DNA of 64,000 nucleotides from Mesohalobacter halotolerans (GTDB lineage: Bacteria; Bacteroidota; Bacteroidia; Flavobacteriales; Flavobacteriaceae). The number at the start of each line of letters is the position of its first letter. Position 1 is the stretch's first letter. A program made the position numbers and the translations under genes. The stretch is from positions 620,001 to 684,000 of the forward strand of contig NZ_SWMU01000001.1 in NCBI RefSeq assembly GCF_006120725.1. Reading direction: 5' to 3'. Positions 10,717-61,873 of this stretch are shown here, one piece after another. Under the pieces are notes generated by a model. That model did no database searches and was not told the origin of the DNA. It saw nothing but the letters and a program-made list of their open reading frames with translations.

Positions 10717-10787
10717 AGGTGTCGAGCGGATTCGAACCGCTGTACATGGTTTTGCAGACCACTGCCTAGCCACTCGGCCACGACACC
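10717..10787 (-). tRNA. tRNA-Cys (GCA)
   Basis: 71-nt cloverleaf. The acceptor GGTGTCG pairs with CGACACC, the anticodon loop is CTGCAAA (GCA), the T arm is GCGGTTCGAATCCGC, and the discriminator is U, as expected for Cys. CCA is not encoded. A TAnnTTTG promoter lies just upstream and a terminator downstream. A broken second copy lies at 11195-11273. Confidence 0.95.
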
Positions 10788-10801
10788 GTTTATTGAGATT
10801 G

Positions 10802-10809
10802 CAAATTTA
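10802..10809 (-). promoter_or_regulatory. -7 box (TAAATTTG) of tRNA-Cys
   Basis: The minus strand reads TAAATTTG 15 nt before the tRNA 5' end. The same box and flank are duplicated in front of the broken tRNA-Cys copy. Confidence 0.65.
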
Positions 10810-10885
10810 AATAATTTATTTCTACTTTAATTAGAAAAAAGAGGTTTTATAAGAAGTAAGTTACAATTTATAATTTTAAAAAAAA

Positions 10886-11170
10886 TCAATACTTTTTTGT
10901 TAATAAATCAGATAAAATTTCGGGGTTCTGGATTACTTTTTCAATGAATTTTCTACTTTTCATGCGTTTTATAAATTTTTTAAGAAAAATAGACTTACTT
11001 CGGTTAACGCATTTAAATTTTAAAACTACACGCCAGTCATTAGCAATTTTTGTAAATGGACCTTCATAATTACCATTGTTATGCAGAATTAATCTTTTCT
11101 CAACATTATGAGTTTCTCCAACATAATACCTGTCAATCTTTTTTGAATAAATTATATAAACAAAATGCAA
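10886..11170 (-). CDS. GIY-YIG nuclease family protein between two tRNA-Cys copies
   Basis: 94 residues if begun at the TTG at 11170 (HFVYIIYSKKIDRYYVGET). The frame stays open to an ATG at 11233, but those 21 residues (with SPEASG) are a read-through of the broken tRNA-Cys copy and its palindrome, so I do not believe that start. The GIY-YIG fold is shown by VYIIYSKKIDRYYVGE, then EKRLILHN and a basic helix (FLKKFIKRMKSRKF). Such short single-domain proteins are numerous in Bacteroidota; their substrate is unknown. It lies between a tRNA-Cys duplicate and the intact tRNA-Cys, all on one strand, so it may be cargo of a tRNA-targeting element. Confidence 0.75.
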   Translation of the reverse strand: MHFVYIIYSKKIDRYYVGETHNVEKRLILHNNGNYEGPFTKIANDWRVVLKFKCVNRSKSIFLKKFIKRMKSRKFIEKVIQNPEILSDLLTKKY

Positions 11171-11194
11171 TTTAGGTAAGAATATATTATTATT

Positions 11195-11273
11195 TGTCGA
11201 GCGCCCCGACGCTTCGGGGGAACCGCTGTACATGGTTTTGCAGACCTCTGCCTAGCCACTCGGCCACGACACC
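11195..11273 (-). pseudogene. Disrupted tRNA-Cys copy with palindrome in the T arm
   Basis: The 5' acceptor strand, D arm and anticodon arm match the intact tRNA-Cys with one substitution (CAGAGG for CAGTGG in sense). In the T arm, GATTC (plus strand) is replaced by the 16-nt palindrome at 11204-11219, and the last two acceptor base pairs are lost. It keeps a copy of the promoter. It cannot form a normal T arm, so it is probably not a functional tRNA. Confidence 0.8.
11204..11219. repeat. 16-nt palindrome CCCCGACGCTTCGGGG inside tRNA-Cys copy
   Basis: Six-bp arms CCCCGA and TCGGGG surround a CGCT loop. The same form occurs at 27761-27776 and 61817-61832, each time inside a partial tRNA copy. 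Confidence 0.85.
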
Positions 11274-11287
11274 TTTTAATCGGATTG

Positions 11288-11295
11288 CAAATTTA
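11288..11295 (-). promoter_or_regulatory. -7 box (TAAATTTG) of the tRNA-Cys copy
   Basis: The minus strand reads TAAATTTG, with a flank like that of the real tRNA-Cys promoter (GATTGCAAATTTAA in both on the plus strand). It may also drive the GIY-YIG gene. Confidence 0.55.
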
Positions 11296-11318
11296 AGAAT
11301 AATTAGAGAATATTACTC

Positions 11319-11681
11319 CTATTCTCTAAGTTTTGTCATTTTAATGCTCACAGCTTCGACATCGCCCATAATTGGCGGGTTGAGTTTGGAGACCTCAGTT
11401 TCGACCCGGCTAACGCTGCTTAATTCCCGAAGCACAGCTGTATTGATCCTTTCAACAACATGTTCGAGCAACTTTGAAGCTTTAGACATCTCTCGCTTGA
11501 CAATGGCGTTGAGATGCACATAATCTACAGTATCGTCCAAATGGTCTGACACCGAAGATCTCTTAAGATCTGTTTCTACTTTAAGATCAACTCTGTAGTC
11601 GCTGCCAATTTTAGTCTCTTCTGAAAGGCATCCGTGGTAGGCGTATACCCTGATATTTTTTAAAGTGATTTGATCCTTCAT
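11319..11681 (-). CDS. folB: Dihydroneopterin aldolase
   Basis: 120 residues, the normal FolB length. The N-terminus ITLKNIRVYAYHGCLSEET holds the conserved YxxHGxxxxE pattern, and the later segments TVDYVHLNAIV, LLEHVVERI and VSKLNPPIMGDVEAVSI match the family, including the PPI near the C-terminus. It cleaves 7,8-dihydroneopterin to 6-hydroxymethyl-dihydropterin in folate synthesis, as a cytoplasmic octamer. The broken tRNA-Cys copy and GIY-YIG gene follow it on the same strand. Before the integrative element arrived it sat just downstream of tRNA-Phe and that gene's terminator. Confidence 0.93.
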   Translation of the reverse strand: MKDQITLKNIRVYAYHGCLSEETKIGSDYRVDLKVETDLKRSSVSDHLDDTVDYVHLNAIVKREMSKASKLLEHVVERINTAVLRELSSVSRVETEVSKLNPPIMGDVEAVSIKMTKLRE

Positions 11682-11698
11682 GATTTAAATTTAAATAA

Positions 11699-11725
11699 AA
11701 AACCGCCTTTTATGGAGGCGGTTTT
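11699..11725 (-). terminator. Original tRNA-Phe terminator, now separated from its tRNA
   Basis: A stem AAAACCGCC with GGCGGTTTT, with a T run on the minus strand. It sits 7 nt beyond the left att repeat and just upstream of folB, the position expected for the terminator of tRNA-Phe before element insertion. Confidence 0.75.
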
Positions 11726-11731
11726 ATAAAC

Positions 11732-11744
11732 GTGGTGCCTCCAG
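11732..11744. other. Left attachment site (13-bp tRNA-Phe 3' end remnant)
   Basis: GTGGTGCCTCCAG, identical to the acceptor/T-arm end of tRNA-Phe at 27626-27638. Flanking bases differ on both sides (C/T here, G/G there), which sets the limits of the identity segment. Confidence 0.85.
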
Positions 11745-11870
11745 TACCACAAAAGTTCTTTTTTATCTTTACTTATCTTTATCTTATTTTAATTTAATAA
11801 ACTATAAAACAGATAGTTAAAATAATTTAGACACTGTATAAATTAAATAAAATAAGAACGAATAAAGTCT

Positions 11871-11895
11871 TATTTGTACCCTTATTTGTACCCTT
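11871..11895 (+). repeat. Left copy of 25-bp direct repeat (two TATTTGTACCCT units)
   Basis: Two tandem TATTTGTACCCT units plus one T. An identical 25-bp copy lies at 27547-27571 in the same orientation. The position near both element ends suggests integrase arm-type or excisionase binding sites. Confidence 0.8.
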
Positions 11896-11924
11896 TTTAT
11901 TATTTTTATATAAAATAATTCATC

Positions 11925-13226
11925 ATGCAAAGGTCAAAAGGAACATCAAGATTCGCATTTAAATCCATCAACAAACTTAAGGAAAATAAAAATAAAGATT
12001 TTACTATTTACTTATTTTTTACTTATGGATCAAGAAGATTAAAATACACAACAGGACTAAAAGTATGTTACAATGATTGGGATTTTAAGAGACAGAGATT
12101 TAAAAACAGACCACATATCTTAGATAAGGATGACAATAACACAAAGCTGTCTGATATTGAAGATTCAATTAATACTATCTATAGTGAGTTAGCAAAAGAG
12201 ACTACCGACATAACACCTGCTTTTTTAAAGAACAGACTGGATCAAAAACTCCAAGAAAAAAAAGTCAGCCTACAAAAAAATGAAAAACTTACATTTTCTG
12301 AACTTGTAGAGAGATTTATAAAATACAAGGAAGGCAACATTAAGGATGTAACACTAAGGTCTTACAAACAGGCACAAAGCCATCTGAGTAGTTTTGAAAA
12401 GCACCTGGGCAAATTATATGAGCTGGATGAAGTAGATTCACAATTTCACAAAGACTTTGTAAGCTATTTAGAGACTGAGAAAGACTTTAAAAAGAACACC
12501 ATAGGCAAGCATATCAAAACCATAAAAACCTTTATGAATTATGCCTTAAACGAAGGCTATACCACCAATCAAAGGTTTAAATCCTCAGAATTTAAAGTTA
12601 CAAAAGAAATTACAACACAAATTTATTTAAATGATGCAGAAATACAGGCGATGTATGAAATAGATTTAAGCAAATATAAGCAACTAGAACACGCCAGAGA
12701 TATTTTCTTAATGGGCTATTATACTGGGCAAAGGGTAAGCGATTATAACGCGTACAGCAAAGACGACATTAGAACCATTAAAGGAAAGAAGTATTTTGAA
12801 ATCGTACAGACCAAAAACAAATCCAAAGGAAGAAAAATCTACTGCCCTATAACAAAGGAAATGCAAGAGATAATGAATAAAAGACATGATGGACTACCGC
12901 CAAAAAAAATACCTGATAGCGATTTAAACGAATGGATAAAGCAGGTCGGGCAACACTTGGAGCTACCATCATTAAACAAAAAAATTAAATGCACTTACAC
13001 ACAAGGTGGAAAAGAAGTAATAGAATACATAGAAAAATATAACTTAATAGGTTCACACACCGCTCGACGTAGCTTCGCTACTAATATGTACAAAAAAGGC
13101 ATGCCAGTTTACGATATCATGCTTTTTACAGGTCATACCACCGAAAAAGAATTTTATAAATATATTCGCATCAAAGATGAAGAAAGAGCAACTCATGTGG
13201 CTAATTCTGGGTTTTTTAATATTTAA
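11925..13226 (+). CDS. Tyrosine recombinase / site-specific integrase
   Basis: 433 residues. An N-terminal arm-binding-like domain (about 1-100) and a SAM-like core-binding domain (about 120-215: LTFSELVERFIKYKEGNIK) precede the catalytic domain. Catalytic residues visible are R in YYTGQRVSDY (about 270), HTARR (about 378-382) and GHTTEKEFYKYIR (about 403-415), which holds the last His and the Tyr nucleophile. This is the usual Bacteroidota element integrase form. It lies just inside the left att site and points into the element. It should catalyse integration into and excision from the 3' end of tRNA-Phe. The next gene starts 14 nt after its stop. Confidence 0.93.
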   Translation: MQRSKGTSRFAFKSINKLKENKNKDFTIYLFFTYGSRRLKYTTGLKVCYNDWDFKRQRFKNRPHILDKDDNNTKLSDIEDSINTIYSELAKETTDITPAFLKNRLDQKLQEKKVSLQKNEKLTFSELVERFIKYKEGNIKDVTLRSYKQAQSHLSSFEKHLGKLYELDEVDSQFHKDFVSYLETEKDFKKNTIGKHIKTIKTFMNYALNEGYTTNQRFKSSEFKVTKEITTQIYLNDAEIQAMYEIDLSKYKQLEHARDIFLMGYYTGQRVSDYNAYSKDDIRTIKGKKYFEIVQTKNKSKGRKIYCPITKEMQEIMNKRHDGLPPKKIPDSDLNEWIKQVGQHLELPSLNKKIKCTYTQGGKEVIEYIEKYNLIGSHTARRSFATNMYKKGMPVYDIMLFTGHTTEKEFYKYIRIKDEERATHVANSGFFNI

Positions 13227-13239
13227 ATTGAAGGTCAAA

Positions 13240-14145
13240 ATGAATATAGACGATATCATCGAAAAAATTTATGATTTAGAGATTGAATACAATAATGAGA
13301 TTGAAAGCTACAGCAATCAAGAAATATTAAATATGAGGGAAGGGGCACCATATAATCCTCTTCTTGAAGATAAGCATGAAGAAACCATAGATAGGATAAA
13401 AAGTGAAGTTACTGTTTTAATATCTAAACTTAGAAAACTATCGGAAGATGAAAACTATTATTTTTTTGATTGCCCTTTTTCAGTATATGTAAACCATTAT
13501 GAAAAAAGAAAAGATTTTTTTATTAAAAATAATATAGATGCAAATGAAATTGATTTTGTTAAAGATGAAATAATAAAAAGAGTTGATAAAAGAAATGAGC
13601 GAATGCTGGGATATTCAGTGTTTGAAATTTATTATCATAGACTAATATATATTAAAAAAAGCCTAGATTATTCAGAAGATAAAAAAATTAATTTTTTAGA
13701 AAAAAAGTTGGCTGACTTTGGTTTTACTGTTGATTACTATTTTGATGAAGATAATGATAAAACTACATGTTTTTTCAACGAAATAGAGGACAATAATAAT
13801 CTTGACACAAATACCACAACAGTAATTAATACCGAATATGATACATCTAAAAGTAATAATCCTATAAGTGGTAATGAAAGAAAGATAGAGTGGATTGGTG
13901 GTCCATCTACATTAGGCTATATAATAGGTTATTTGGCAGAATATGGATATATAGATGCTCCTAAAAAAAAAGGTGGAGATATAAATTATTCAGCATTCGC
14001 TAGAGAAGTTATGAATACTTTTAAAATTGAGACTACAGCGAACACCCTTCAAAAATATTTAAATTTAGATTCTGAGAAATCAACAGAAATAAAGAGAAAG
14101 CTGGAAAATGCTAAGTTTTATATCCCTCATTTTAATGAATTTTAG
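13240..14145 (+). CDS. Hypothetical element protein, possibly RteC-like
   Basis: 301 residues from the ATG at 13240. An upstream in-frame ATG at 13177 lies within the integrase gene, so I prefer the start preceded by GAAGGTCAAA. The protein is highly charged. A central segment (EIYYHRLIYIKKSLDYSEDK) and a C-terminal segment (KIEWIGGPSTLGYIIGYLAE then NTLQKYLNLDSEKSTEIKRK) recall the layout of RteC regulators of Bacteroidota conjugative elements, but the likeness is weak. RteC proteins control excision genes; its place right after the integrase would suit such a role. A low-complexity acidic linker (about 185-215) joins the two parts. Confidence 0.55.
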   Translation: MNIDDIIEKIYDLEIEYNNEIESYSNQEILNMREGAPYNPLLEDKHEETIDRIKSEVTVLISKLRKLSEDENYYFFDCPFSVYVNHYEKRKDFFIKNNIDANEIDFVKDEIIKRVDKRNERMLGYSVFEIYYHRLIYIKKSLDYSEDKKINFLEKKLADFGFTVDYYFDEDNDKTTCFFNEIEDNNNLDTNTTTVINTEYDTSKSNNPISGNERKIEWIGGPSTLGYIIGYLAEYGYIDAPKKKGGDINYSAFAREVMNTFKIETTANTLQKYLNLDSEKSTEIKRKLENAKFYIPHFNEF

Positions 14146-14238
14146 ACAGTACTAGTACTGATTCAAGCACCATTAAGTACTGATAAACAGCATAATACCT
14201 GTTTAATTTGTTGTCTCAAACTTTAAAATTCAAAGGTC

Positions 14239-14535
14239 ATGAAACAACAAAAAACAATCCAGTTACTCAATGTAACACCAGAAGAACTCAAAGAAAGCAT
14301 AATTAAAGATGTAAGAGAAGAACTAAGCAAAATCAAGCTTAGTACAGAACCCCAACCACAAGAGGAATACCTTACACGTAAGGAACTTGCAAAACTCTTT
14401 AAGGTAACACTCCCAACCATTTCAGATTGGTCTAATAAGGGCATTTTAAAGCCTTATAGGCTTGGTAATCTTGTGCGATTTAAACGCTCAGATATCAACG
14501 AAGCTTTAAAAATCATTAACCCTAAAAACCAATAA
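14239..14535 (+). CDS. Helix-turn-helix protein (excisionase-like)
   Basis: 98 residues. The C-terminal half is a MerR/excisionase-type winged HTH: YLTRKELAKLFKVTLPTISD then WSNKGILKPYRLGNLVRFKR. The N-terminal half is an amphipathic helix. Proteins of this kind serve as excision directionality factors or regulators in Bacteroidota elements. It lies between the RteC-like gene and the primase gene, with 3 nt to the latter, so the two are probably co-transcribed. The leader CAAAGGTC just before the ATG resembles that of the preceding gene (GAAGGTCAAA). Confidence 0.8.
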   Translation: MKQQKTIQLLNVTPEELKESIIKDVREELSKIKLSTEPQPQEEYLTRKELAKLFKVTLPTISDWSNKGILKPYRLGNLVRFKRSDINEALKIINPKNQ

Positions 14536-14538
14536 GCC

Positions 14539-16842
14539 ATGGAAACGAAAAAGATAAAATTTTCAACATATAATGATCTTTATACACCAGCTACTATAAT
14601 AACTCTAGAAGAGTTTACAGATAGCATCAAGAGCAGCGAAATTTCAAATCAAATTGAACATATCAGAGAAGTTTATGAAAATGGTGATGAAGATAAATCA
14701 CAGCTTTTAAAGAAAAAACTGCCAGGCGTCACGGTGTCCGGTATATTCAAAGACAGAAGAAACGCAGATAACATTTCAGAGTATTCTCAACTGGTCATTT
14801 TAGATATTGACAAATTAGACAAAAACCAAGTAGTGTCTATTAAAAATAAATCAAAAATCGCACCTTATACGGTAGCCTCATTTATTAGCCCAAGAGGTAG
14901 AGGACTTAAAATAATAGTCAGAGTAGATTCTAATGCAGAGCATCATAAATTAGCAATAAGCCAAGTAAAAGAGTATTACAGAAAAGCACTCGAACTAGAG
15001 TTAGATGATGGTGATGATATTTGCAGATTATGTTTTATGTCTTACGACAAAGATTGTTATTCTAATTTCAACGCAAATGTTTTTAATGTAGATATACAAG
15101 CATTTGAGGAAGAAAAAAACAACTTAGAAGAATTGCAAGACGACATAACAAAGCAGAGAACACAGGTACAAACAAAATCTTCGGAAGATAGTATTCAAAC
15201 CCTATCAACTTTCGAATTATTAGAAAGATGTATCAAATTCACCGAAAAAAAGAGCCAATATATTGAAGGCAATCGCAACAATTTTATCTATATGTTCGCT
15301 TCAAATGCCAATAGATTTGGTATTGACGAATCTGACACCTTGGATTTTTGCTTAACTAATTTTGATCTAGACGAAAGAGAAATTAAATCATCTGTAAAAA
15401 GCGCATACAAACACCATTCTCACGAGTTTGCAAAGTTTGCAAAGTTTGCAAACGATGCAAAGCTTGAAAAAGCATTTGATAATGATGAAAACAGTATAAA
15501 GGACAGTTCAATTTTAAACAATACACTATCAATTCCTGAAAGCGTATATGAATCGCTACCTGCTTTATTTCAATTAGGAATTAAATATTTAAAGACAAAA
15601 AGGGATAAAGACGTTTTCTTGACTGGTGCTTTTTCAATTATATCTGGTTGCTTGCCAAATGTAACAGGCTTATATCATGGTAAAGAAGTTTACCCCAACT
15701 TATATGCATTCATTTTAGCGCCTGCCGCATCAGGCAAAGGTTCTCTCACGTTTTCTAAAATGTTGGCAGATAAATACCATGATGAAGTATTATCTGAATC
15801 AAAAAATTTACAGGAAGAGTACAAACAAGAATTAGAAGTACATAAACAAACTAAAAAGTATCTGAAGAAAGGCGAGCTACCACCACCACCGCCAGAAGAA
15901 CCCGTATTTAAAGTGGTTTTTATTCCTGCAAATACCAGTAATGCAAAAATGATGAAACATTTAGAAGATAATGAAGGCTTTGGCATTGTATGCGAAACAG
16001 AGGCTGATACTCTGGGTCAGGTATTCAAAAACGAATGGGGTTCTTATTCCGATTTATTAAGAAAAGCATATCATCACGAGAGAATATCCAGCTCAAGAAA
16101 GACAAACAATGAGTATTTTGAAATCAATAACCCTAGAATCTCAGCAGTTTTATCTGGAACACCTAATCAAATTCTGAATATCATAGACTCAGCAGAAGAT
16201 GGCCTATTTAGTAGATTTATGTTTTATGTGTTTAGCTCAGAACCTATTTGGTTAGACCCATCACCAAAAGCAAATCCTGTTAACTTAACAGAGCACTATA
16301 AAAGACTATCTAAATATGTTTTAGAAATGGTACGCTTTTTTGAAAGTTCCCCAACTAATATAACACTATCAGAGGAGCAATGGGATAGATTTAACCCACT
16401 TTTTAACGAGTATTTATTCAGAATATACAACTTAGTACATCAAGAGGCTACAAGTATTGTAAAGCGTCTAGGGTTAATTGTATTTAGATTTTGTATGATG
16501 TTTACCGCTATGCGTAAATATGAAAATAAAATGACAGAAATGAGCTTAGAGTGCACAGATCAAGACTTTGAAAATGCCATTTTATTAGCCAATATGTATT
16601 TAGAACATAGTATTTTAGTGTATAACAGTTTGCCAAATAACAGTTCTGAAATTGTGTTTAAAAGCGCTACAGCTCATAAATTCTATGATAAACTCCCTAA
16701 GGATTTTCAAAGAAAAGAAGCTGTTGACATTGGAAATAAAATGAATTTAAGCGAACGTACAGTTGATGGCTATTTGTCTAAACTAGAAAAAGCAAGTTAT
16801 TTGTCTAAACCAAAAGCAGGATTTTACATCAAAATGAAGTAA
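14539..16842 (+). CDS. VirE_N / DUF3987 primase-helicase-like protein
   Basis: 767 residues. The N-terminal part (about 70-150: SQLVILDIDKLDK, VASFISPRGRGLKIIVRVD) is a BT4734/VirE_N-type primase-like domain. The C-terminal part (about 340-650) is a DUF3987 domain with a P-loop-like APAASGKGS (about 394-402), a proline run (LPPPPPEEP) and downstream motifs AVLSGTPNQI and DGLFSRFMFYVF. The last 50 residues look like a winged helix (MNLSERTVDGYLSKLEKASYL). Such proteins are the replication or mobilisation-linked proteins of Bacteroidota integrative elements. The coding sequence includes an in-frame TTTGCAAAG array, and a second array follows the stop codon. Confidence 0.82.
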   Translation: METKKIKFSTYNDLYTPATIITLEEFTDSIKSSEISNQIEHIREVYENGDEDKSQLLKKKLPGVTVSGIFKDRRNADNISEYSQLVILDIDKLDKNQVVSIKNKSKIAPYTVASFISPRGRGLKIIVRVDSNAEHHKLAISQVKEYYRKALELELDDGDDICRLCFMSYDKDCYSNFNANVFNVDIQAFEEEKNNLEELQDDITKQRTQVQTKSSEDSIQTLSTFELLERCIKFTEKKSQYIEGNRNNFIYMFASNANRFGIDESDTLDFCLTNFDLDEREIKSSVKSAYKHHSHEFAKFAKFANDAKLEKAFDNDENSIKDSSILNNTLSIPESVYESLPALFQLGIKYLKTKRDKDVFLTGAFSIISGCLPNVTGLYHGKEVYPNLYAFILAPAASGKGSLTFSKMLADKYHDEVLSESKNLQEEYKQELEVHKQTKKYLKKGELPPPPPEEPVFKVVFIPANTSNAKMMKHLEDNEGFGIVCETEADTLGQVFKNEWGSYSDLLRKAYHHERISSSRKTNNEYFEINNPRISAVLSGTPNQILNIIDSAEDGLFSRFMFYVFSSEPIWLDPSPKANPVNLTEHYKRLSKYVLEMVRFFESSPTNITLSEEQWDRFNPLFNEYLFRIYNLVHQEATSIVKRLGLIVFRFCMMFTAMRKYENKMTEMSLECTDQDFENAILLANMYLEHSILVYNSLPNNSSEIVFKSATAHKFYDKLPKDFQRKEAVDIGNKMNLSERTVDGYLSKLEKASYLSKPKAGFYIKMK
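15427..15462. repeat. Iteron-like TTTGCAAAG array inside the primase gene
   Basis: Four 9-bp units in tandem (TTTGCAAAG twice, TTTGCAAAC, GATGCAAAG). In frame they encode FAKFAKFANDAK. The same core TTGCAA recurs just after the gene. Confidence 0.75.
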
Positions 16843-16850
16843 ATAGAACT

Positions 16851-16882
16851 TTGCAACATTGCAAACTTTGCAAAGCTTGCAA
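16851..16882. repeat. Second TTGCAA array after the primase gene
   Basis: Four TTGCAA cores start at 16851, 16859, 16868 and 16877, 8-9 nt apart, within 9 nt of the stop codon. The rest of the spacer up to 17034 is AT-rich and gene-free. This could be an origin or a site bound by the preceding protein. Confidence 0.65.
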
Positions 16883-17034
16883 TTAAATATTTAACTATGC
16901 CGGCAGTTAAATATTCGATTAAACAAATTCCTCAGACAAATAAGGTCAATACAGGATTATTTTAAATTTCTATGGTTCTGTTACGCATAAAAGTTTATAT
17001 TTTAGCACTTAAAAAATAATCAGTCTTAATATTT

Positions 17035-18975: not shown

Positions 18976-18979
18976 AAAT

Positions 18980-19588: not shown

Positions 19589-19665
19589 TTCCTATTGGTA
19601 TTTAGCTATTTTCAATTTTTCATTTATTAAAAAATCTAATCAATACATATAAAACTCATCTAACC

Positions 19666-27619: not shown

Positions 27620-27625
27620 TAAAAG

Positions 27626-27638
27626 GTGGTGCCTCCAG
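27626..27638. other. Right attachment site in tRNA-Phe
   Basis: GTGGTGCCTCCAG, matching 11732-11744 exactly. It covers the acceptor 3' strand, discriminator and edge of the T arm of tRNA-Phe. Confidence 0.85.
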
Positions 27639-27699
27639 GAATCGAACCAGGGACACAAGGATTTTCAGTCCTTTGCTCTACCAACTGAGCTAAGGCACC
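27627..27699 (-). tRNA. tRNA-Phe (GAA)
   Basis: 73 nt. Acceptor GGTGCCT pairs with AGGCACC, D arm GCTCAGTTGGTAGAGC, anticodon loop CTGAAAA (GAA), T loop TTCGATT, discriminator A. CCA is not encoded. Its 3' end is the integration site of the element. No TAnnTTTG box lies directly upstream; a truncated copy with a promoter lies about 40 nt further up, so that promoter probably transcribes the intact gene. Confidence 0.95.
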
Positions 27700-27740
27700 A
27701 GTTTTAATTTCCCAATTATGGCTTTTACTTTAATTTTTAA

Positions 27741-27788
27741 TTTTCAGTCCTTTGCTCTACTCCCGAGACTTCGGGAAGCTAAGGCACC
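27741..27788 (-). pseudogene. Truncated tRNA-Phe 5' half with palindrome in the D arm
   Basis: The sense strand starts like tRNA-Phe (GGTGCCTTAGC), then TCAGTTGG is replaced by an 18-nt segment containing the palindrome 27761-27776. The match to tRNA-Phe (TAGAGCAAAGGACTGAAAA) then resumes and stops after the anticodon. It lies between the promoter and the intact tRNA-Phe. Confidence 0.82.
27761..27776. repeat. 16-nt palindrome TCCCGAGACTTCGGGA inside tRNA-Phe copy
   Basis: Six-bp arms TCCCGA and TCGGGA, loop GACT. Same form as the palindromes at 11204-11219 and 61817-61832. Confidence 0.85.
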
Positions 27789-52350: not shown

Positions 52351-52358
52351 CAAATATA
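52351..52358 (-). promoter_or_regulatory. -7 box (TATATTTG) of the exported-protein cluster
   Basis: The minus strand reads TATATTTG 20 nt before the ATG of the 940-residue gene. The spacer 52359-52637 holds no other recognised feature. Confidence 0.55.
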
Positions 52359-52637
52359 TATGTTAAAATATTTGTTAATGCCAGTGTTGTCGTGTTTTGT
52401 CACAAGTGGTATAAAAAACGACGTGACTAACATTATCACTTTTGTTTACTTAATTTGGTTGAATTACTAGAAGGATTTTTGCGTCTTAAATCCAAAGTGT
52501 GGATTTAGGAATTAAGATAGTTTTAATTGAAAATGATTAAATTTTGTCATTTATTTTTAATACAAAATTTAAATCATTTAAAGGATAATTTATACTTAGT
52601 TCTAGTTTATGTCAAGGTCTATGAATCTTGTAAAACA

Positions 52638-52668
52638 ACAACCCAACCGAGAATGGTTGGGTTGTTTG
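52638..52668. terminator. Terminator between the two leftward units
   Basis: An 11-bp perfect stem (ACAACCCAACC with GGTTGGGTTGT), 6-nt loop. On the minus strand it follows the lipoprotein gene at 52687. Confidence 0.8.
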
Positions 52669-52686
52669 GATAAGGTGTAAAGAATA

Positions 52687-53226: not shown

Positions 53227-53391
53227 AATAAAAGAATTTTAAATGTTAAGATTGGGGTCAAACATAGAGATTAAGCGGCTTGTTTAGAAATAAATGTCTT
53301 GAGTTGCTTTAAAAATGTCATGAATGACAAAATTTTGCGAACTTAAAATTTAAAAGTACTTATCTGAAATAAGGTTAAGACATTGATGAGG

Positions 53392-55104: not shown

Positions 55105-55214
55105 AAAAACAGTATTGAATTATTAATAGACTAACGCGTAATTAAAACTTCCATAAAAAATTAAAAAATCACTTAATTTTTAAAATACGATAGGTTGAAA
55201 TAGTTATTCCTTAT

Positions 55215-56378
55215 TTAAGGACTCACAAAGTTGATACTGACATTAAAGAAAAATGGATTATCAAGGTTGTTGACCATAGCAAACTGCTGGTCTCCAAAAA
55301 AGCCTCTAAAGAAATCATTGTTGCCATCCAATTGATCTGCATCGTAAGACCAATTCCAGCGGTAACCGGCTTGAAGACTTAGCCAAAAATAGCCCATAAG
55401 TTTCATTTGATACTCTATTTTTGGTCTGACTTCTCCTCTTCTTATTTCAAAAGAATTACCATCTACAGAATAATCTTCTATCCTGTAACTTTGACCCTCT
55501 AAATCGAAGCCAGCCAGTAACAAAGAATTTTTATTGATATTATAACGCACATACGCTCTGGCCGGGAAGAGTATTTCAGTTCCCCATTTTCTGTTTTTTG
55601 AGCTCCAGTCGTACATAATTACAGGAACATAATTCAATGCGCCAACTCTATAAGTTCTGGCAAGGCCAATTCCCCATCTATAATAGTCATTTACACGACG
55701 TCCGTAAACAGCTGCGGCACTATACCGAATTGTGTTTAAGGGCTGTAAGTCGTCAAAATCATAGTTGCCGCTTAAATCCATTTGACCTTGAAAAACTATA
55801 AATTCTGTTTCGTTTAATGGAAAAAAGACAGTATTAGTCCAATTGAGATTTCTTAATCCATCTTCATTCAATATTTGACCCAGGCTTCTGGCTTCGGAAC
55901 CATCGGGTAAGGTCACAGGTTGTCGTGGTGAGTTGAGACTTTCTGATATATTGTAACTGGTATCCTTATAATTGATACCGGACTGCCACACAAAACTACT
56001 TTTTGATATAATAGGGATATTAGACCCAAACCGAAAACCACCAGTAAACTTTGCTCTTCCAGTTTCATTTATAGTTGGGTTTTCCTCTTCTACATCATAA
56101 CCGCTATTTGGGTTGGTCTGTGGGAAACGAACATCTGAAAATTCATATTTGTAAGGCATCTGCGCATCAAACCCTACACTTATAAATTTCTGTGGGCTCA
56201 TTCCTAAGATTGTAGGCTTTGCATAACGCTTTACAGGTGTGTCATCAACAGCTTCAAAATCATCATAAATACTGTAATCCTCTTCTTCCTCTTCTTTTTC
56301 ATCTTCAACTTGTGCGAAATTGTATTGAAAGCTTCCTAGAAGTACCAATACTAATATTAAACATGATGGAGTTCTCAT
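55215..56378 (-). CDS. Outer-membrane beta-barrel protein (DUF6268-like)
   Basis: 387 residues from ATG at 56378, which gives a normal signal peptide (MRTPSCLILVLVLLGSFQYN); the ATG at 56426 lies inside the preceding gene. The mature N-terminus has an acidic run (EDEKEEEEEDYS). The rest shows alternating strands (SFVWQSGINYKDTSYN, WGIGLARTYRVGALNYVPVI) and ends in an aromatic strand (FFFNVSINFVSP), so it is a barrel. The match to DUF6268 is by memory of the pattern. It starts 1 nt after the DUF2147 gene. Confidence 0.68.
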   Translation of the reverse strand: MRTPSCLILVLVLLGSFQYNFAQVEDEKEEEEEDYSIYDDFEAVDDTPVKRYAKPTILGMSPQKFISVGFDAQMPYKYEFSDVRFPQTNPNSGYDVEEENPTINETGRAKFTGGFRFGSNIPIISKSSFVWQSGINYKDTSYNISESLNSPRQPVTLPDGSEARSLGQILNEDGLRNLNWTNTVFFPLNETEFIVFQGQMDLSGNYDFDDLQPLNTIRYSAAAVYGRRVNDYYRWGIGLARTYRVGALNYVPVIMYDWSSKNRKWGTEILFPARAYVRYNINKNSLLLAGFDLEGQSYRIEDYSVDGNSFEIRRGEVRPKIEYQMKLMGYFWLSLQAGYRWNWSYDADQLDGNNDFFRGFFGDQQFAMVNNLDNPFFFNVSINFVSP

Positions 56379-56379
56379 C

Positions 56380-56829
56380 TTAATTTTTTTTCTTTTGTAA
56401 TCTTTTCCAGGTATCTGTTCGCCCAAAAGTCTTTAAACCGACATAACCTCGGATATCGAGTGTATTCTCATCTTTAAGATTGATCACACAATCATAAGTG
56501 GTTCCATTTTGTGGGTCGTAAATGGTGCCGTTTTCCCAAACGCCGTCACCCTTGTATTCAAAATCTTTAAGCATTCTGTAGCCTCGTAACGGAACATCAC
56601 GCATGCTCTCATCAGGATTGTTTATATCGGTTTTAGGCTCGCCTGTCTCAGGATCTTTAGGTTCCCTTAACCAAACAATTTTGCCGTAATATTTATCGTC
56701 AATTTTATCAATTTTGACATAGACTTTTCCATTACTTGGTTCCCATACGCCAACAATTGCATCGGCTTCTTGTGAAAAACCAATGTAGGCAAACAAGCAA
56801 AAGGTAATGATAAGAATTTTAGTTTTCAT
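56380..56829 (-). CDS. DUF2147 family exported protein
   Basis: 149 residues with a signal peptide (MKTKILIITFCLFAYIGFSQ). The DUF2147 pattern is clear: IVGVWEPSNGKVYVKIDKID, YYGKIVWLREP, GDGVWENGTIYDPQNGTTYD and LDIRGYVGLKTFGRTDTWKR. Its structure is a lipocalin-like barrel and a periplasmic binding role is suspected; the ligand is unknown. It is in an operon with the barrel protein gene (1 nt) and follows the 173-residue lipoprotein gene (22 nt). Confidence 0.87.
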   Translation of the reverse strand: MKTKILIITFCLFAYIGFSQEADAIVGVWEPSNGKVYVKIDKIDDKYYGKIVWLREPKDPETGEPKTDINNPDESMRDVPLRGYRMLKDFEYKGDGVWENGTIYDPQNGTTYDCVINLKDENTLDIRGYVGLKTFGRTDTWKRLQKKKN

Positions 56830-56851
56830 AGTATAAATTGTATTTAGATTA

Positions 56852-57373
56852 TTATTTACGGGTTTGTATTTCGAATGTAGCTACTAAATCAAATGTCAAG
56901 TCATCAAAATATTCTTCATCTAACATATCGAAATCAGCAACAAAAGTTAACTTTTCGTCTTTAAAGGCTTCATTGAAATCTTCTTGAACTTCTGCAACAT
57001 TGAAATTGTTGGCTTGACTATTATCAAAATTAGTCTCCAATAAACCCACTCGCGTCATATTAGTATTTTTAGGTTTCATTTCCATGACCACTTTACCTAA
57101 GTTTGGATATTCGACATTTTTTTGAGGAATAATTTTTATGGTCGATACTCTTGCATTTTCTATAACGATTTCGTTTTCAGTTTCAGAAAAAAGCTCTTCT
57201 AATGAATATTCCCAAGTTACGGTTGCGGTATTAGGACCTTGAAAAAGTGGCCCTGTTGCTTTTAATTCTAAAACCGGGGTTTTTACAATATGAGTTTCGG
57301 TTTCAACTGAACAGGATATAGCTGTAATAAATATGGTAAGCAGTAAAATATTTTTGAAATAATTTCTCATCAT
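56852..57373 (-). CDS. Lipoprotein, function unknown
   Basis: 173 residues with a lipobox (FITAISCSVE). The mature part has an immunoglobulin-like beta pattern (PNTATVTWEYSLEELFSETE, LGKVVMEMKPKNTNMT, DDLTFDLVATFEIQTRK). The family is not recognised. It is first in a leftward unit with the DUF2147 and barrel genes, so the three may form an envelope set. Confidence 0.6.
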   Translation of the reverse strand: MMRNYFKNILLLTIFITAISCSVETETHIVKTPVLELKATGPLFQGPNTATVTWEYSLEELFSETENEIVIENARVSTIKIIPQKNVEYPNLGKVVMEMKPKNTNMTRVGLLETNFDNSQANNFNVAEVQEDFNEAFKDEKLTFVADFDMLDEEYFDDLTFDLVATFEIQTRK

Positions 57374-57487
57374 TAATGATTTATTATTGTGATAAATTTA
57401 AATTTATTTTTTAAACAAATCTAAAAATTTAGAGTATTATTTGCTTTTAAAGTGTCTTTAAATTGATTCACAGTATTTTAAATAGTC

Positions 57488-58693
57488 TTATTCTTCGATA
57501 TCCGGATATAAAAAATTATTGTAAGGAAAACGGGTCACATGAATACCTCTCACTTTTTTATAGACCTTTTCTCTAAAAGATTTAATGTTTTGTTTTTCGA
57601 TAGCGGAGATAAATATCGCATCATCACCCACTTTGTTCATCCAGGTGTTTTTCCAGTCTTTTAAAGAGAAATGTTTTTCTGTTTTTTCTGTCATTAAATC
57701 GTCTTCGTCTATTGTCTCAGGCTCATATTTATCAATTTTATTAAATACCATCATACAGGGTTTGTCTTGTGCATCGATTTCATCTAAAATTTGATTGACA
57801 GAATCAATATGATCCTGAAAATTTGGATGCGAAATATCAACCACATGCAGAAGCATATCGGCTTCTCGCACCTCATCTAAAGTCGATTTAAACGACTCGA
57901 CCAATTGAGTCGGTAATTTTCTGATAAACCCCACGGTGTCAGAAAGCAAAAAAGGTAAATTGCGAATAACTACTTTACGCACTGTAGTGTCTAGCGTAGC
58001 AAAAAGTTTGTTTTCAGCAAAAATATCGCTTTTACTAATGATGTTCATTAAGGTCGATTTCCCCACATTGGTATAACCTACAAGCGCCACACGAACAAGG
58101 CTTCCACGATTGCCGCGCTGCACGGCCATTTGTTTATCTATCGTTTTCAATTTCTTTTTAAGTAAAGCAATCTTATCACGAACAATACGGCGGTCCGTTT
58201 CAATTTCGGTTTCACCCGGACCACGCATTCCAATACCGCCGCGCTGTCGTTCAAGGTGTGTCCATAAGCCGGCCAAACGAGGTAATAGATATTCATACTG
58301 TGCCAATTCAACTTGTGTACGGGCATAACTAGTAGTTGCACGTTGCGCAAAAATATCTAAGATGAGGTAAGTCCGGTCAACGACTTTGCATTTAAGTATT
58401 TTTTCGATGTTTTTTTGTTGTGCAGGAGACAGTTCGTCATCAAAAATAGCCGTTCCAACATCGTTGGCTTTCACAAACTGTCGAACTTCCTCAATTTTTC
58501 CGGAACCGATAAAGGTTTTGGGGTTGGGTTTGTCAAGCTTCTGTTGAAATCGTTTGAGCACTTCACCACCGGCAGTATAGGTTAAAAATTCAAGTTCATC
58601 AAGGTATTCGTCAGATTTGTCTTCATCTTGATATTGGTTAACAATACCAATGAGGACAGCGGTTTCGTATGTTGTTTTTTTGGGTTCAAGCAT
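57488..58693 (-). CDS. hflX: GTPase HflX
   Basis: 401 residues. The N-terminal HflX domain (YLDELEFLTYTAGGEVL, PKTFIGSGKIEEV, FDDELSPAQQKNIE) and the connecting motif (YEYLLPRLAGLWTHLERQRG then GIGMRGPGETEIE) precede the GTPase domain: G1 GYTNVGKST, G3 DTVGFIRKLP, G4 NKID and G5 ISAIEKQN. It binds and splits 70S and 50S ribosomes under stress. Length is normal. It is a single gene. Confidence 0.95.
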   Translation of the reverse strand: MLEPKKTTYETAVLIGIVNQYQDEDKSDEYLDELEFLTYTAGGEVLKRFQQKLDKPNPKTFIGSGKIEEVRQFVKANDVGTAIFDDELSPAQQKNIEKILKCKVVDRTYLILDIFAQRATTSYARTQVELAQYEYLLPRLAGLWTHLERQRGGIGMRGPGETEIETDRRIVRDKIALLKKKLKTIDKQMAVQRGNRGSLVRVALVGYTNVGKSTLMNIISKSDIFAENKLFATLDTTVRKVVIRNLPFLLSDTVGFIRKLPTQLVESFKSTLDEVREADMLLHVVDISHPNFQDHIDSVNQILDEIDAQDKPCMMVFNKIDKYEPETIDEDDLMTEKTEKHFSLKDWKNTWMNKVGDDAIFISAIEKQNIKSFREKVYKKVRGIHVTRFPYNNFLYPDIEE

Positions 58694-58780
58694 ATATTAA
58701 TATGTCTTACAAAGGTAAGTAAATTAGTGGTTTTGATAATTGCAAGTATGAAAGTTCCAGATCGGTAAGTTTAAAAAATA

Positions 58781-59170
58781 TTATTTTTCCATATCCGCTA
58801 ATTGAATGTTGAGGGCTTTGACACTGATTTGTATTTCTATAATAGACAAAATAAGCGATATCATTAATAAAACTAGAGATATTCCAAATATGATGCTTCC
58901 ATATAGCTGCAATTCTTCAAAAATCAAAAACATGCTTAAAACACATAAAAATAATGATAAAATTCCAAAGATTTGCATATTTCTAATCAGATTGACTCGC
59001 TTTTTGAGATTAGAAATTTGAGCTTTAATGCTTTTACTAGGGTTGTCTTTGTAGGCTTTATAGAGGTTTCTGATCAGACCTGCAATGGTCAAAAATCTGT
59101 TGGTATAGGCTAATAGTAATAACGAAATAGCAGGGAAGAGCAGAGCCGGCGTAGTTAAAGAAACATTCAT
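58781..59170 (-). CDS. DUF2721 membrane protein
   Basis: 129 residues with three hydrophobic helices (ALLFPAISLLLLAYTNRFLT, IFGILSLFLCVLSMFLIF and SIIFGISLVLLMISLILSII) and a basic cytoplasmic loop. The pattern of helix 1, the TNRFL motif and the RNMQIFGILSLFLC segment match DUF2721. The family has no known function. It lies between hflX and the divergent phosphate transporter gene. Confidence 0.85.
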   Translation of the reverse strand: MNVSLTTPALLFPAISLLLLAYTNRFLTIAGLIRNLYKAYKDNPSKSIKAQISNLKKRVNLIRNMQIFGILSLFLCVLSMFLIFEELQLYGSIIFGISLVLLMISLILSIIEIQISVKALNIQLADMEK

Positions 59171-59304
59171 ATCCTATATATTTTTTACAAAGTTAAGGCT
59201 TAAAATTGTAGTCTTACCAAAAGGAATAATTTTAATGCAAGTCTTAACGATTTGATAATAAGTTTTTTTAAGTTATCAACATCGGATAGTTGATTTTTGC
59301 AAAT

Positions 59305-59312
59305 TATTTTTG
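59305..59312 (+). promoter_or_regulatory. -7 box (TATTTTTG) of the phosphate transporter gene
   Basis: TATTTTTG lies 11 nt before the ATG at 59324, so the leader would be very short. Confidence 0.45.
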
Positions 59313-59323
59313 CATCATTGATT

Positions 59324-61585
59324 ATGGAAACTTTTTATACGGTTTTAATCATATTACTTTTTGTGCTCGCTATAGCAGATCTTATAGTTGGGGTAAGTAA
59401 TGATGCGGTCAATTTTTTAAATTCTGCAATAGGGTCAAAAGCCATTCCGATGCGTACCATTTTAGCAGTTGCGGGTGTAGGTGTCTTAGTGGGTGCTATT
59501 TTTTCAAGTGGATTAATGGAAGTGGCAAGAAAAGGTATTTTTATGCCGGAGTTGTTTTTCTTTGATGAAATTATCATCATTTTTCTCGCAGTTCTAATTA
59601 CAGATATTTTACTTTTAGATGTGTTTAATTCATTTGGTATCCCTACATCGACCACAGTATCGGTAGTTTTTGAGTTGCTAGGAGCTTCGGTGTGCATTGC
59701 AGCTTTAAAAATATATTACGACCCAGCAAGTGAAATCGCATTAAGTGAATACATCAATGTTGATAAAGCTTCAGATATCAGTATAGGAATATTAATGTCT
59801 GTCTTGATAGCTTTTGTAGTAGGTGCCATTATTCAATATATCAGTCGTTTAATTTTTAGTTTTGAGTATTACAAACAACCGATTTGGCTTAAGGCTTTGT
59901 TTGGCGGTATTTCACTTTCTGCAATCACCTATTTCATATTAATAAAAGGCATCAACAGTATCCAATTTATCGATGATAATTTTATCACTTTAGTAAAATC
60001 TAATACTTTATTAATAATAGTCTTTAGTTTACTTACTTGGACAGTTGTTTCATGGTTGGTTCAAGCTTTGAAATTTAATTTATTTAAATTTATTATTGTC
60101 CTCGGTACATTTGCTTTAGCTTTAGCTTTTGCCGGGAACGATTTGGTCAATTTTATCGGTGTAAGTATTGCAGCCTGGCAATCTTTTGAATTGTGGCTTG
60201 TCGCTTTTCAAACGCAAGGGGTTTTGCCTTCAGAATTTAGTATGACTGCCTTATCGGGAGAAGTTGAAACACCTGAATATATGTTAATTATTGCTGGATT
60301 TATAATGGTATTGACCTTATGGTTTTCTAGCAAAGCTCAATATGTCGTGCAAACCGGAGTCAATTTAAGCCGACAGGGAGAAGGTGATGAACGCTTCAAG
60401 GCCAATCTCTTATCGCGGAAAACTGTAAGACTTTTCTATTATTTTGGTTTAGGTATAAAAACCATATTACCTAAATCTATACAATCATTTTCAAATTCTC
60501 GGTTTGAAAAAGGAAATGAAGAAACGACCAAACAAGGCATTACGAAGCCTGCTTTTGACTTACTAAGAGCATCAATAAATTTGGTTTTAGCCAGTATTTT
60601 AATTTCAATTGCTACAAATTTTACGCTGCCTTTATCCACAACCTATATCACTTTTATGGTAGCCATGGGAACTTCATTTGGAGACAAAGCTTGGGGCAGA
60701 GAAAGTGCAGTTTACAGAGTAGCCGGAGTTTTTAATGTGATAGGGTCTTGGTTATTAACTGCTGTTATTGCTTTTGCTATTGCAGCAGTAGTTGCAATTA
60801 TTATTTATTATGGTGAGATTTATGCTATTGTAGGCCTTGTAGCTTTCGTTATGTTCTCTTTAATTAGAAGTGGATTAAGACATGCCAAGCGAGTCAAATC
60901 TCAAAAACAGAAAAAACGCTTTAAACGTAGCGATATAATTACAATCAATGATATTACGGCAGAATCTTCACATAATATAGTATCTGTGATTAAAGGGATT
61001 GATGTCAGGTATACAGATTTAGTTAATAATTTAGGCTACCACGATTTATCAAAATTGAAAAAAATTCGTAAGGATTTGCCTGATTTAGAAAATGAAATCG
61101 ATGACTTGAAAGACAATATTTTTTATTACATCCGGTCTTTGGAAGACGATACAGTTGAAGCTAGTAAATTTTATATCTTGACATTAGATTATTTGCAAGA
61201 TATGGAGCAATCTATGGCTTATATGATAAGAACGAGTCATAAATATGTCAACAATAACCACAGGAATCTAAAGTTTAATCAAATACGAGAACTCAAAAGC
61301 ATTAGCCGAGATTTAACTGCTATTTTTGAGCACTTAAAAATTGTATTTCAAAAAAACGAATTTGACGATATCGAATTTTTGATTGAACAGCAAAAAGAAC
61401 TTCAAGACTTAGTTTCAGCTCTAATTCAGAAGCAAATCGAGCGTATTCGTACGACAGATATGGGCCAGCAAAATACCAAATTGTATTTTGGTTTGCTTTT
61501 AGAAACTAAAGACATGATCACGGCGTGTATTAATATGTTAAACCTCTTTTACGACTACTATTCAGAAGCCAAAGAAGAATTTTAA
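59324..61585 (+). CDS. PiT family inorganic phosphate transporter with PhoU-like tail
   Basis: 753 residues from ATG at 59324; the ATG at 59297 overlaps the promoter box and adds nine residues. Two PHO4 repeats are marked by LIVGVSNDAVNFLNSAIGSK and FAGNDLVNFIGVSIAAWQSF, with FGIPTSTTVSVVFELLGASV and FTLPLSTTYITFMVAMGTSF as the paired motifs. Residues about 530-753 are cytoplasmic and helical (LKKIRKDLPDLENEIDDLKD), resembling the PhoU-like regulatory tail of Bacteroidota homologues. It imports phosphate with protons or Na+. It is a single gene, divergent from the DUF2721 gene. Confidence 0.9.
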   Translation: METFYTVLIILLFVLAIADLIVGVSNDAVNFLNSAIGSKAIPMRTILAVAGVGVLVGAIFSSGLMEVARKGIFMPELFFFDEIIIIFLAVLITDILLLDVFNSFGIPTSTTVSVVFELLGASVCIAALKIYYDPASEIALSEYINVDKASDISIGILMSVLIAFVVGAIIQYISRLIFSFEYYKQPIWLKALFGGISLSAITYFILIKGINSIQFIDDNFITLVKSNTLLIIVFSLLTWTVVSWLVQALKFNLFKFIIVLGTFALALAFAGNDLVNFIGVSIAAWQSFELWLVAFQTQGVLPSEFSMTALSGEVETPEYMLIIAGFIMVLTLWFSSKAQYVVQTGVNLSRQGEGDERFKANLLSRKTVRLFYYFGLGIKTILPKSIQSFSNSRFEKGNEETTKQGITKPAFDLLRASINLVLASILISIATNFTLPLSTTYITFMVAMGTSFGDKAWGRESAVYRVAGVFNVIGSWLLTAVIAFAIAAVVAIIIYYGEIYAIVGLVAFVMFSLIRSGLRHAKRVKSQKQKKRFKRSDIITINDITAESSHNIVSVIKGIDVRYTDLVNNLGYHDLSKLKKIRKDLPDLENEIDDLKDNIFYYIRSLEDDTVEASKFYILTLDYLQDMEQSMAYMIRTSHKYVNNNHRNLKFNQIRELKSISRDLTAIFEHLKIVFQKNEFDDIEFLIEQQKELQDLVSALIQKQIERIRTTDMGQQNTKLYFGLLLETKDMITACINMLNLFYDYYSEAKEEF

Positions 61586-61626
61586 ATTAATCTTGATATA
61601 AAGTTTTTGATAATTTAAAATTAGTT

Positions 61627-61634
61627 TATATTTG
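61627..61634 (+). promoter_or_regulatory. -7 box (TATATTTG) of tRNA-Val(UAC)
   Basis: TATATTTG lies 13 nt before the tRNA start, the same spacing as in front of the other tRNA genes of the window. Confidence 0.65.
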
Positions 61635-61647
61635 CATCCGCATTTTA

Positions 61648-61722
61648 GGGTGCGTAGCTCAGTTGGTTTAGAGCATCTGGTTTACACCCAGAAGGTCAGG
61701 GGTTCGAATCCCTTCGCACCCA
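61648..61722 (+). tRNA. tRNA-Val (UAC)
   Basis: 75 nt. Acceptor GGGTGCG pairs with CGCACCC, D arm GCTCAGTTGGTTTAGAGC, anticodon loop TTTACAC (UAC) on a TCTGG/CCAGA stem, T arm GGGGTTCGAATCCCT, discriminator A. CCA not encoded. Confidence 0.95.
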
Positions 61723-61723
61723 C

Positions 61724-61753
61724 AAAACCCAAACAGATGTTTGGGTTTTTTGT
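61724..61753 (+). terminator. Terminator of tRNA-Val(UAC)
   Basis: A 12-bp perfect stem (AAAACCCAAACA with TGTTTGGGTTTT), 2-nt loop, T run. A near-identical copy follows the partial tRNA copy. Confidence 0.85.
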
Positions 61754-61811
61754 AAAAAGTCTCGGAATATTGTTCATTTATTTTGTGGTATTGAGGAGTT
61801 TTGAAGACAGA

Positions 61812-61873
61812 GGTTCCCCCGAAACTTCGGGGTCTTCGCACCCACAAAACCCGAACAGATGTTTGGGTTTTTT
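61812..61873 (+). pseudogene. Partial tRNA-Val 3' end plus terminator, with palindrome in the T arm
   Basis: GGTTC is followed by the palindrome 61817-61832 and then by TCTTCGCACCCAC, the tRNA-Val 3' end, and a second copy of the tRNA-Val terminator with one A-to-G change. The 5' half of the tRNA is absent. About 90 nt of unrelated sequence separate it from the first terminator. No intact gene lies in between. Confidence 0.82.
61817..61832. repeat. 16-nt palindrome CCCCGAAACTTCGGGG inside tRNA-Val copy
   Basis: Six-bp arms CCCCGA and TCGGGG around AACT; third member of the series with 11204-11219 and 27761-27776. Confidence 0.85.

Follow-up and report, generated by a model that had tools for sequence, protein, structure and literature searches.

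A probable small tRNA-lodged GIY-YIG element with hairpin-capped tRNA halves in Bacteroidota

In a 64,000-nucleotide stretch of the Mesohalobacter halotolerans genome (contig NZ_SWMU01000001.1, positions 620,001 to 684,000 of the forward strand; the window throughout this text), intact genes for tRNA-Cys, tRNA-Phe and tRNA-Val each lie near a partial copy of the same tRNA in which loop bases have given way to a 16-nucleotide hairpin. We consider it fairly probable that these loci derive from a small, mobile, tRNA-lodged GIY-YIG element, which rebuilds the tRNA gene with a half of its own and leaves the displaced half capped by the hairpin. This reading draws on the anatomy of the loci, their spread, empty and filled orthologous sites, the pairing of the hairpin, and the tie between one hairpin class and one nuclease clade. 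Psychroflexus serves in the counts below as the genus label for the window genome (G000) and its close relatives.

Hairpin-bearing tRNA copies in the window and its genome

The three loci of the window comprise the following features, the hairpins being given without a strand. Intact tRNA genes were called by ARAGORN and Rfam RF00005, and hairpins were found by motif search and comparison with the intact gene, as were, by comparison alone, the short copies of Cys and Val.

10716 to 10787, minus strand: intact tRNA-Cys gene (anticodon GCA), the inner copy
10886 to 11170, minus strand: GIY-YIG nuclease open reading frame, 94 amino acids from a TTG start (PF01541, E value 1.6e-9)
11195 to 11203, minus strand: short copy of the tRNA-Cys 3' half (CGCTCGACA), part of the truncated copy
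11204 to 11219: hairpin of the Cys copy, CCCCGACGCTTCGGGG, in place of the T-loop bases GAATC
11220 to 11273, minus strand: displaced 5' half of tRNA-Cys, at the position where empty sites keep their tRNA
27625 to 27699, minus strand: intact tRNA-Phe gene (GAA)
27740 to 27760, minus strand: short copy of tRNA-Phe, 21 nucleotides from the region past the D loop
27761 to 27776: hairpin of the Phe copy, TCCCGAGACTTCGGGA, in place of the D-loop bases CAGTTG
27777 to 27788, minus strand: displaced first 12 nucleotides of tRNA-Phe, an arrangement also found in L198 and L210
61648 to 61723, plus strand: intact tRNA-Val gene (TAC)
61810 to 61816, plus strand: short copy of the 5' side of the tRNA-Val T arm (GAGGTTC)
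61817 to 61832: hairpin of the Val copy, CCCCGAAACTTCGGGG, in place of the T-loop bases GAATC(C)
61833 to 61873, plus strand: displaced 3' end of tRNA-Val with a copy of the terminator (97.5% identity over 40 base pairs, bp)

An earlier note on this DNA had described partial copies of the three tRNAs near the intact gene on the same strand, with bases of the D or T arm swapped for a palindrome. Both statements were borne out by ARAGORN and by comparison with the intact genes, the lost bases being GAATC in the T loop of Cys, CAGTTG in the D loop of Phe and GAATC or GAATCC in the T loop of Val. Read in the order of the tRNA strand, the Cys copy runs from its first 54 nucleotides, up to GGTTC, through the hairpin to CGCTCGACA; the Phe copy from its first 12 nucleotides through the hairpin to 21 nucleotides reaching the anticodon arm; and the Val copy from the 5' side of the T arm through the hairpin to the 3' end and the copied terminator. 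The displaced Cys copy together with its upstream sequence shares 93.5% identity with the intact locus over 77 bp. That one intact tRNA stands beside a displaced half places the arrangement closer to a tRNA-regenerating insertion than to a scar.

The suggestion of a small element that lodges at tRNA genes, duplicates part of its target and ends in a palindrome fits most of the findings, but it needed amending at three points, one being the intact tRNA beside the displaced half as just described. The fuller form of the element includes a GIY-YIG nuclease gene (10886 to 11170 in the window), and bare copies look like derivatives. The palindrome is not a single fixed scar, as its sequence varies between nuclease clades and the common feature is a hairpin, mostly of the form YYCCG...CGGRR; loop bases ending in CT describe the three window copies on the plus strand and fail as a general rule.

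A search of the window with YCCCGANNNTTCGGGR, allowing one mismatch, returned six matches (three sites on both strands) where 0.04 were expected, and none of 100 shuffled sequences reached six, so that the shared palindrome far exceeds chance, as had been proposed. Across the window genome (2.65 Mb, 11 contigs, 37 tRNA genes) the pattern occurs at 16 sites, and far from being equally common away from tRNA genes, 12 of these lie within 600 bp of one, in 1.37% of the genome (P about 7e-20), and 11 within 200 bp, in 0.55% of it; the other four do not. The Phe copy is not an artefact of assembly either, since it is present with unchanged spacing in two further species.

Furthermore, 18 of the 37 tRNA genes are accompanied within about 1.5 kb by a same-strand partial copy, defined as an exact stretch of at least 12 nucleotides shared with the gene's own flank, a count in which Val-GAC was entered twice (38 rows) and the two Glu genes share a single copy that is scored for each. 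Flanks of other loci gave 16 of 1376 pairs and the antisense of the own flank 0 of 38. With nearly half of the tRNA genes of one genome affected, the element may shape tRNA loci broadly. Visual inspection shows the affected parts to be T loops (Pro, Pro, Val, Cys, Tyr), D loops (Phe, Arg-TCG, Glu) or the anticodon arm (Asn, Arg-TCT), and the palindromes comprise several different sequences. At two Arg loci, nuclease gene and truncated tRNA recur together as a unit. Among the 40 genomes searched for GGTTC followed by the palindrome, the own genome included, 13 were positive, all of them in the window's genus, and a reversed control pattern had no match.

A separate observation concerns tRNA-Asn in the same genome (L068, G000 contig C1 near 87211), where three tandem truncated copies, a large part of their anticodon arm being replaced by TCCCGCACATGCGGGA, precede the intact gene and a GIY-YIG open reading frame follows it.

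The nuclease gene itself sits between the truncated and the intact Cys copies, and its mechanically called reading frame continues through the tRNA remnant. The window genome holds 13 GIY-YIG matches, two of which belong to long reading frames (454 and 600 amino acids); among the remaining 11 small genes, eight lie within 410 bp of a tRNA gene (600-bp test, P about 2e-13). The nearest solved sequence is the UPF0213 protein 1zg2 (E value 2.3e-4), and a scan against NCBIfam gave only matches far under cut-off. As expected of a free-standing homing endonuclease, the GIY-YIG domain scores above the PF01541 cut-off and the catalytic glutamate is present in 68 of 70 aligned rows, drawn from the matches listed and the own genome; lysine takes its place in the window nuclease and in L107. 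Carriage by phages or plasmids was considered and rejected, as no nuclease match was found at an E value of 1e-6 among 50,697 phage and 72,556 plasmid records.

Empty and filled orthologous sites

The Cys locus of Psychroflexus, in which the tRNA gene lies downstream of folB, provides both states of the site. The first tRNA-like start falls 43 to 88 bp past the folB stop in 15 of the 17 measurable loci, and at 147 and 954 bp in the two remaining ones. For the window and G024, it is the truncated, hairpin-bearing copy that begins there; the intact Cys gene begins 486 or 492 bp further on, beyond the nuclease gene, which gives an insert of about 490 bp. The displaced half in the window (11220 to 11273) begins 45 bp from the folB stop, as the tRNA does at empty sites. 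The 15 other loci have one start each: 12 are without a partial copy in the stretches examined and are taken as empty, and three (L162, L166, L181) have a downstream copy, the palindrome of L166 being detected by pattern. In G017, where the distance to folB is unmeasurable, a copy lies about 494 bp upstream of the Cys gene.

At the Phe loci of the genus, a GIY-YIG motif occurs downstream in 6 of 23, four of the 23 having less than 200 bp of downstream sequence, and the D-loop copy is common to the window genome, G010 and G013. Presence and absence at an orthologous site, as known from homing endonucleases, are thus found at both the Cys and the Phe loci of Psychroflexus. From this, together with the wider spread described below, we infer that the element moves.

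As a separate observation, the tRNA-Phe loci of G000, G013 and G010 (L191, L198 and L210) are near-identical upstream of the gene and differ in their downstream DNA, which is folB-like in G013; the differences suggest rearrangement at the tRNA.

Nuclease relatives, hairpin pairing and tandem arrays

Relatives of the nuclease were collected with five GIY-YIG protein queries, by protein similarity alone and with one genome per species, yielding a sample of at least 78 loci which by record title belong to Bacteroidota, except for one from Ignavibacteria and one from Balneolaceae. Among the matches listed, 51 of 78 have an intact tRNA gene on the same strand within 200 bp upstream (50 of the 68 with 300 bp of upstream sequence), namely Phe in 35, Asn in 8, Val in 3, Leu in 2, Asp in 2 and Met in 1; 4 of the 78 listed have one within 200 bp downstream, and none on the opposite strand. 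In many of the tRNA-linked relatives, the nuclease gene is followed by a hairpin-capped partial copy of the same tRNA. In an additional sample, which covered 158 genomes of the phylum, 36 contain a close relative, and 27 of the 29 loci examined, the own one left aside, have a tRNA gene in the stretch, including Met, Thr, Asn, Asp, Lys, Gly, Ser, Val, Pro and Leu. The element is found in many bacteria, nearly all loci being from Bacteroidota, and is probably mobile.

When both samples were pooled, the first represented by its listed matches, 90 of 107 loci had an intact same-strand tRNA within 1300 bp, the other 17 having none in reach. Of these 90, 66 contained a hairpin with pieces of the local tRNA to its left and right (65 without L232, whose positive is a normal T arm; L224, the own locus, was excluded), against 25 of 900 in a control with tRNAs of other isotypes.

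In 33 Phe-type copies aligned from the matches listed, the 16-nucleotide hairpin replaces the five T-loop bases following GGTTC or its variants, and all six pairs form in 33 of 33. These copies were chosen for a 16-nucleotide insert and an intact right part of Phe, with pairing no criterion (45 of the 78 listed loci did not match this pattern). CCGA....TCGG is invariant in them, and C-G and T-A exchange at pair 1 in a ratio of 21 to 12 and at pair 2 of 30 to 3. Such pairing would also be expected if the hairpin-capped half served the transcript, either by blocking the processing of a truncated tRNA or by ending the nuclease mRNA, and the flanking T-stem pieces with the tRNA terminator behind them agree with such a role. 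We regard it as quite improbable, as one of the three species with the Phe D-loop copy has lost a Watson-Crick pair of the stem, copies are seen in several states of decay, and those of the upstream type do not lie at the end of the nuclease gene.

Other clades carry different hairpins, for example TTCCGATAGCTATCGGAA beside Asn and TCCCGACATACTGTCGGGA in the Val anticodon arm. On a nuclease tree of 70 rows (67 from the 78 listed loci and three from the own genome, sequences under 70 amino acids or with more than one stop being dropped, and L148 relabelled from Tyr to Val since its ARAGORN call overlapped a fragment), tRNA type changes 14 times against a shuffled mean of 29.2 and is therefore clustered. 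A single clade of all Phe-linked nucleases is rejected (approximately unbiased test, p-AU 0.0016), which means that targets have been switched; nuclease clades tend to keep one tRNA yet have switched.

One hairpin class stays with the same nuclease clade although the tRNA type varies. All ten hairpins classified as having the GATAGYTATC core lie to the same side of a single branch (Shimodaira-Hasegawa-like approximate likelihood ratio test, SH-aLRT, 94), beside Asn (7), Phe, Met and Thr, in a classification made by hand after viewing the sequences, with a mixed class of others and 22 of 93 rows unclassified that may sit inside the groups. Class changes 5 times (shuffled mean 27.1) and tRNA type 15 times on the tree of these rows, a comparison in which class has fewer states, so that the shuffles are the test, and which leaves out rows without a tRNA label, including L136 with its GATAGCTATC core; the tree has few supporting columns and its related rows are not independent.

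Tandem units with a nuclease gene occur in L085 (about 370 bp per unit) and L022. Units without one are repeated behind tRNA-Ala in G004 (seven, each about 91 bp long), behind Met in G003 (five) and behind Arg in G021 (three with a degraded fourth). Within 9 of the 10 arrays with at least two full units, the units are 94-100% alike, and 77% in L100; arrays thus grow by duplication, and their origin by repeated insertion was rejected for most.

This duplication weighs against the element as we propose it and agrees with a passive origin, by which tRNA genes duplicate in tandem, independent REP-like palindromes enter stem-loops and survive in the spare copy only, and the GIY-YIG gene rides along in a sheltered position behind tRNAs. 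Many copies (Pro, Val, Met, Tyr) have no adjacent GIY-YIG gene. YYCCG hairpins are also found, without any duplication, in rnpB: among the 20 readable genes of the 21 found in Psychroflexus (L008, L250-L270), 9 carry YYCCG...CGGRR hairpins, which to judge by position lie in the first variable stem-loop in 5 of them, and the pattern is missing from 11, so that such hairpins come and go in a single-copy RNA gene. Further points against the element are the 24 of 90 loci without a hairpin in the flanked-hairpin test, the damaged stems among Phe-linked copies outside the 33 (L102, L116, L121), the four genomic palindromes far from tRNA genes, and the window nuclease, which is probably dead to judge from its active-site change from glutamate to lysine. 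A test by tree did not demonstrate horizontal transfer inside Psychroflexus, a single clade of its Phe-type nucleases not being rejected (p-AU 0.118). Lastly, cutting and movement are themselves deduced, and a nuclease that cuts the loop would be expected to attack the host gene as well, since the intact tRNA keeps that loop.

Even so, we judge a passive origin unlikely. The listed relatives were picked without regard to tRNAs, and still 51 of 78 have one closely upstream and none on the opposite strand; a hairpin-bearing partial copy lies nearby in 66 of 90 loci; the fact that a hairpin class stays with one nuclease clade whatever the tRNA is not readily explained by it; and a Y1 (RAYT/IS200) transposase is absent from the genome.

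The rnpB genes of the genus were also seen to differ by TCCCGATAGCTATCGGGA-type hairpins in variable stem-loops, some of them nested.

Proposed mechanism and known systems

The element that we favour would combine the gene for a single-domain GIY-YIG nuclease with a duplicate of half the target tRNA, and would have an end capped by a hairpin. Its point of entry would be a stem-loop of a tRNA gene, at the T loop, the anticodon arm or the D loop, where its own half would complete the resident half to an intact tRNA. The displaced half would come to lie at the far end. There it would be joined to a short piece copied from the other half, a hairpin, mostly YYCCG...CGGRR, standing where the loop bases had been. 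Mirror forms would be set by which half the element brings, and both are seen: the truncated copy lies downstream with the terminator in the window Val locus and in most of the relatives' Phe loci, and upstream in the window Cys and Phe loci. Bare copies would arise by tandem duplication of units and loss of the nuclease gene.

This assignment of the insert and the resident side is a probable one, and the nuclease may cut the loop of the tRNA gene, recognise or be blocked by the hairpin, and move the element by break repair in a homing-like manner. The hairpin would then be either the cognate site or a cap rendering the outer copy uncuttable; the outer copy is without the loop bases and the intact tRNA retains them. 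More tentatively, these loci may represent a new class of mobile elements spread across Bacteroidota, in which a one-gene GIY-YIG system acts on tRNA stem-loops, recognises its own hairpin, inserts while rebuilding the tRNA and seals the displaced half, such hairpins also entering loops of other RNA genes, e.g. rnpB. The proposed element would bring under one heading many of the small GIY-YIG genes and tRNA fragments in Bacteroidota that mislead annotation, and would provide a minimal tRNA-regenerating element without integrase or transposase. Owing to the tie between hairpin class and nuclease clade, recognition of a site by its enzyme can be put directly to the test.

Several known systems share parts of this architecture. 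REP/RAYT pairs consist of palindromes, dispersed in intergenic DNA, that are tied to one enzyme family. The window palindrome has 16 sites, 12 within 600 bp of tRNA genes and four elsewhere, and the enzyme here is a GIY-YIG protein. Mobilisation by RAYT/IS200 was rejected, as the Y1 transposase domain PF01797 has no match in G000 and is found in 5 of 14 control genomes. Short hairpins dispersed over the genome are also known as the RPE of Rickettsia. For such hairpin elements of organelles and Rickettsia we know of no linked nuclease gene and no tRNA regeneration. The Ssn family, reportedly described in Nature Communications in 2025, is said to comprise site-specific single-strand GIY-YIG nucleases with genomic repeats. 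The likeness would lie in a single-domain GIY-YIG protein paired with a dispersed repeat; tRNA lodging and half duplication are not known to be part of Ssn. The restriction of a hairpin class to one nuclease clade is compatible with Ssn-like cutting of single-stranded DNA at a cognate repeat. To our knowledge, no system joins GIY-YIG tRNA lodging, tRNA rebuilding and a paired repeat.

Dispersed hairpin elements are further described, in the parts of the sources consulted, as RHE in sponges (PMC2800124) and as palindromes in Volvox (PMC2670323). SegB of phage T4 is a GIY-YIG homing endonuclease encoded between tRNA-Arg and tRNA-Ile, with a tRNA intergenic region as its listed target (PMC2988022). 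It resembles the present genes as a small, intron-free GIY-YIG gene among tRNAs, but it is a phage gene, for which the part of that source consulted mentions neither a duplicated tRNA half nor a hairpin cap, and the loci described here are in bacterial chromosomes.

Genomic islands insert in tRNA genes, rebuild the gene and leave a displaced fragment, according to PMC4383910, and a regenerated tRNA with a displaced fragment beside it, the signature of tyrosine-integrase islands, is what we find. The copies could therefore be att scars of such islands or of phages, which we hold to be very improbable: the units measure about 50-500 bp, the element being about 0.4 kb, the displaced part bears a junction hairpin, and 5' parts (window Cys and Phe loci) are displaced as well as 3' parts. 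The GIY-YIG reading frame is the only gene seen between the copies in the loci read, not every locus having been scanned for integrases. Att scars are thus disfavoured by size, hairpin and the integrase not seen in those loci.

A literature search found no paper, by title or start of abstract, on GIY-YIG elements at tRNA genes with palindromic fragments, most subscription papers being outside the search, and the main text of PMC9897764, the part consulted, contains no mention of GIY-YIG. Because cutting is putative, an integrase was not seen and a Y1 transposase is absent, the element is filed in no known system; we regard it as kin to tRNA-lodged or free-standing GIY-YIG elements, and as a variant not previously described as far as searched.

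A further GIY-YIG remnant lies near the end of the window, beside a tRNA gene that showed no partial copy in the tRNA-flank comparison:

63048 to 63254, minus strand: GIY-YIG pseudogene with two internal TAA codons, 55 bp from tRNA-Ala (PF01541, 55.9 bits)
63308 to 63382, minus strand: tRNA-Ala gene (GGC) adjoining the pseudogene (ARAGORN)

The pseudogene is probably a decayed element of the same kind. Elsewhere in the genome, L002 and L003 (contig C1 near 390624 and 403349) share a dispersed repeat of about 175 bp at 96% identity that is centred on TCCCGAAATTTCGGGA; the 3-kb stretch examined showed no tRNA. L060 and L065 are GIY-YIG genes away from tRNAs, lying among repeated palindromes of other sequence, CTGAAACAAGTTCAG and CATTGCGAGG-like, that may be the repeats belonging to these genes. 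Within the window, positions 62060 to 62330, behind tRNA-Val (GAC), hold imperfect repeats containing GGGCTTCA...CTGGATCAACTTGAGTTAATCCAG.

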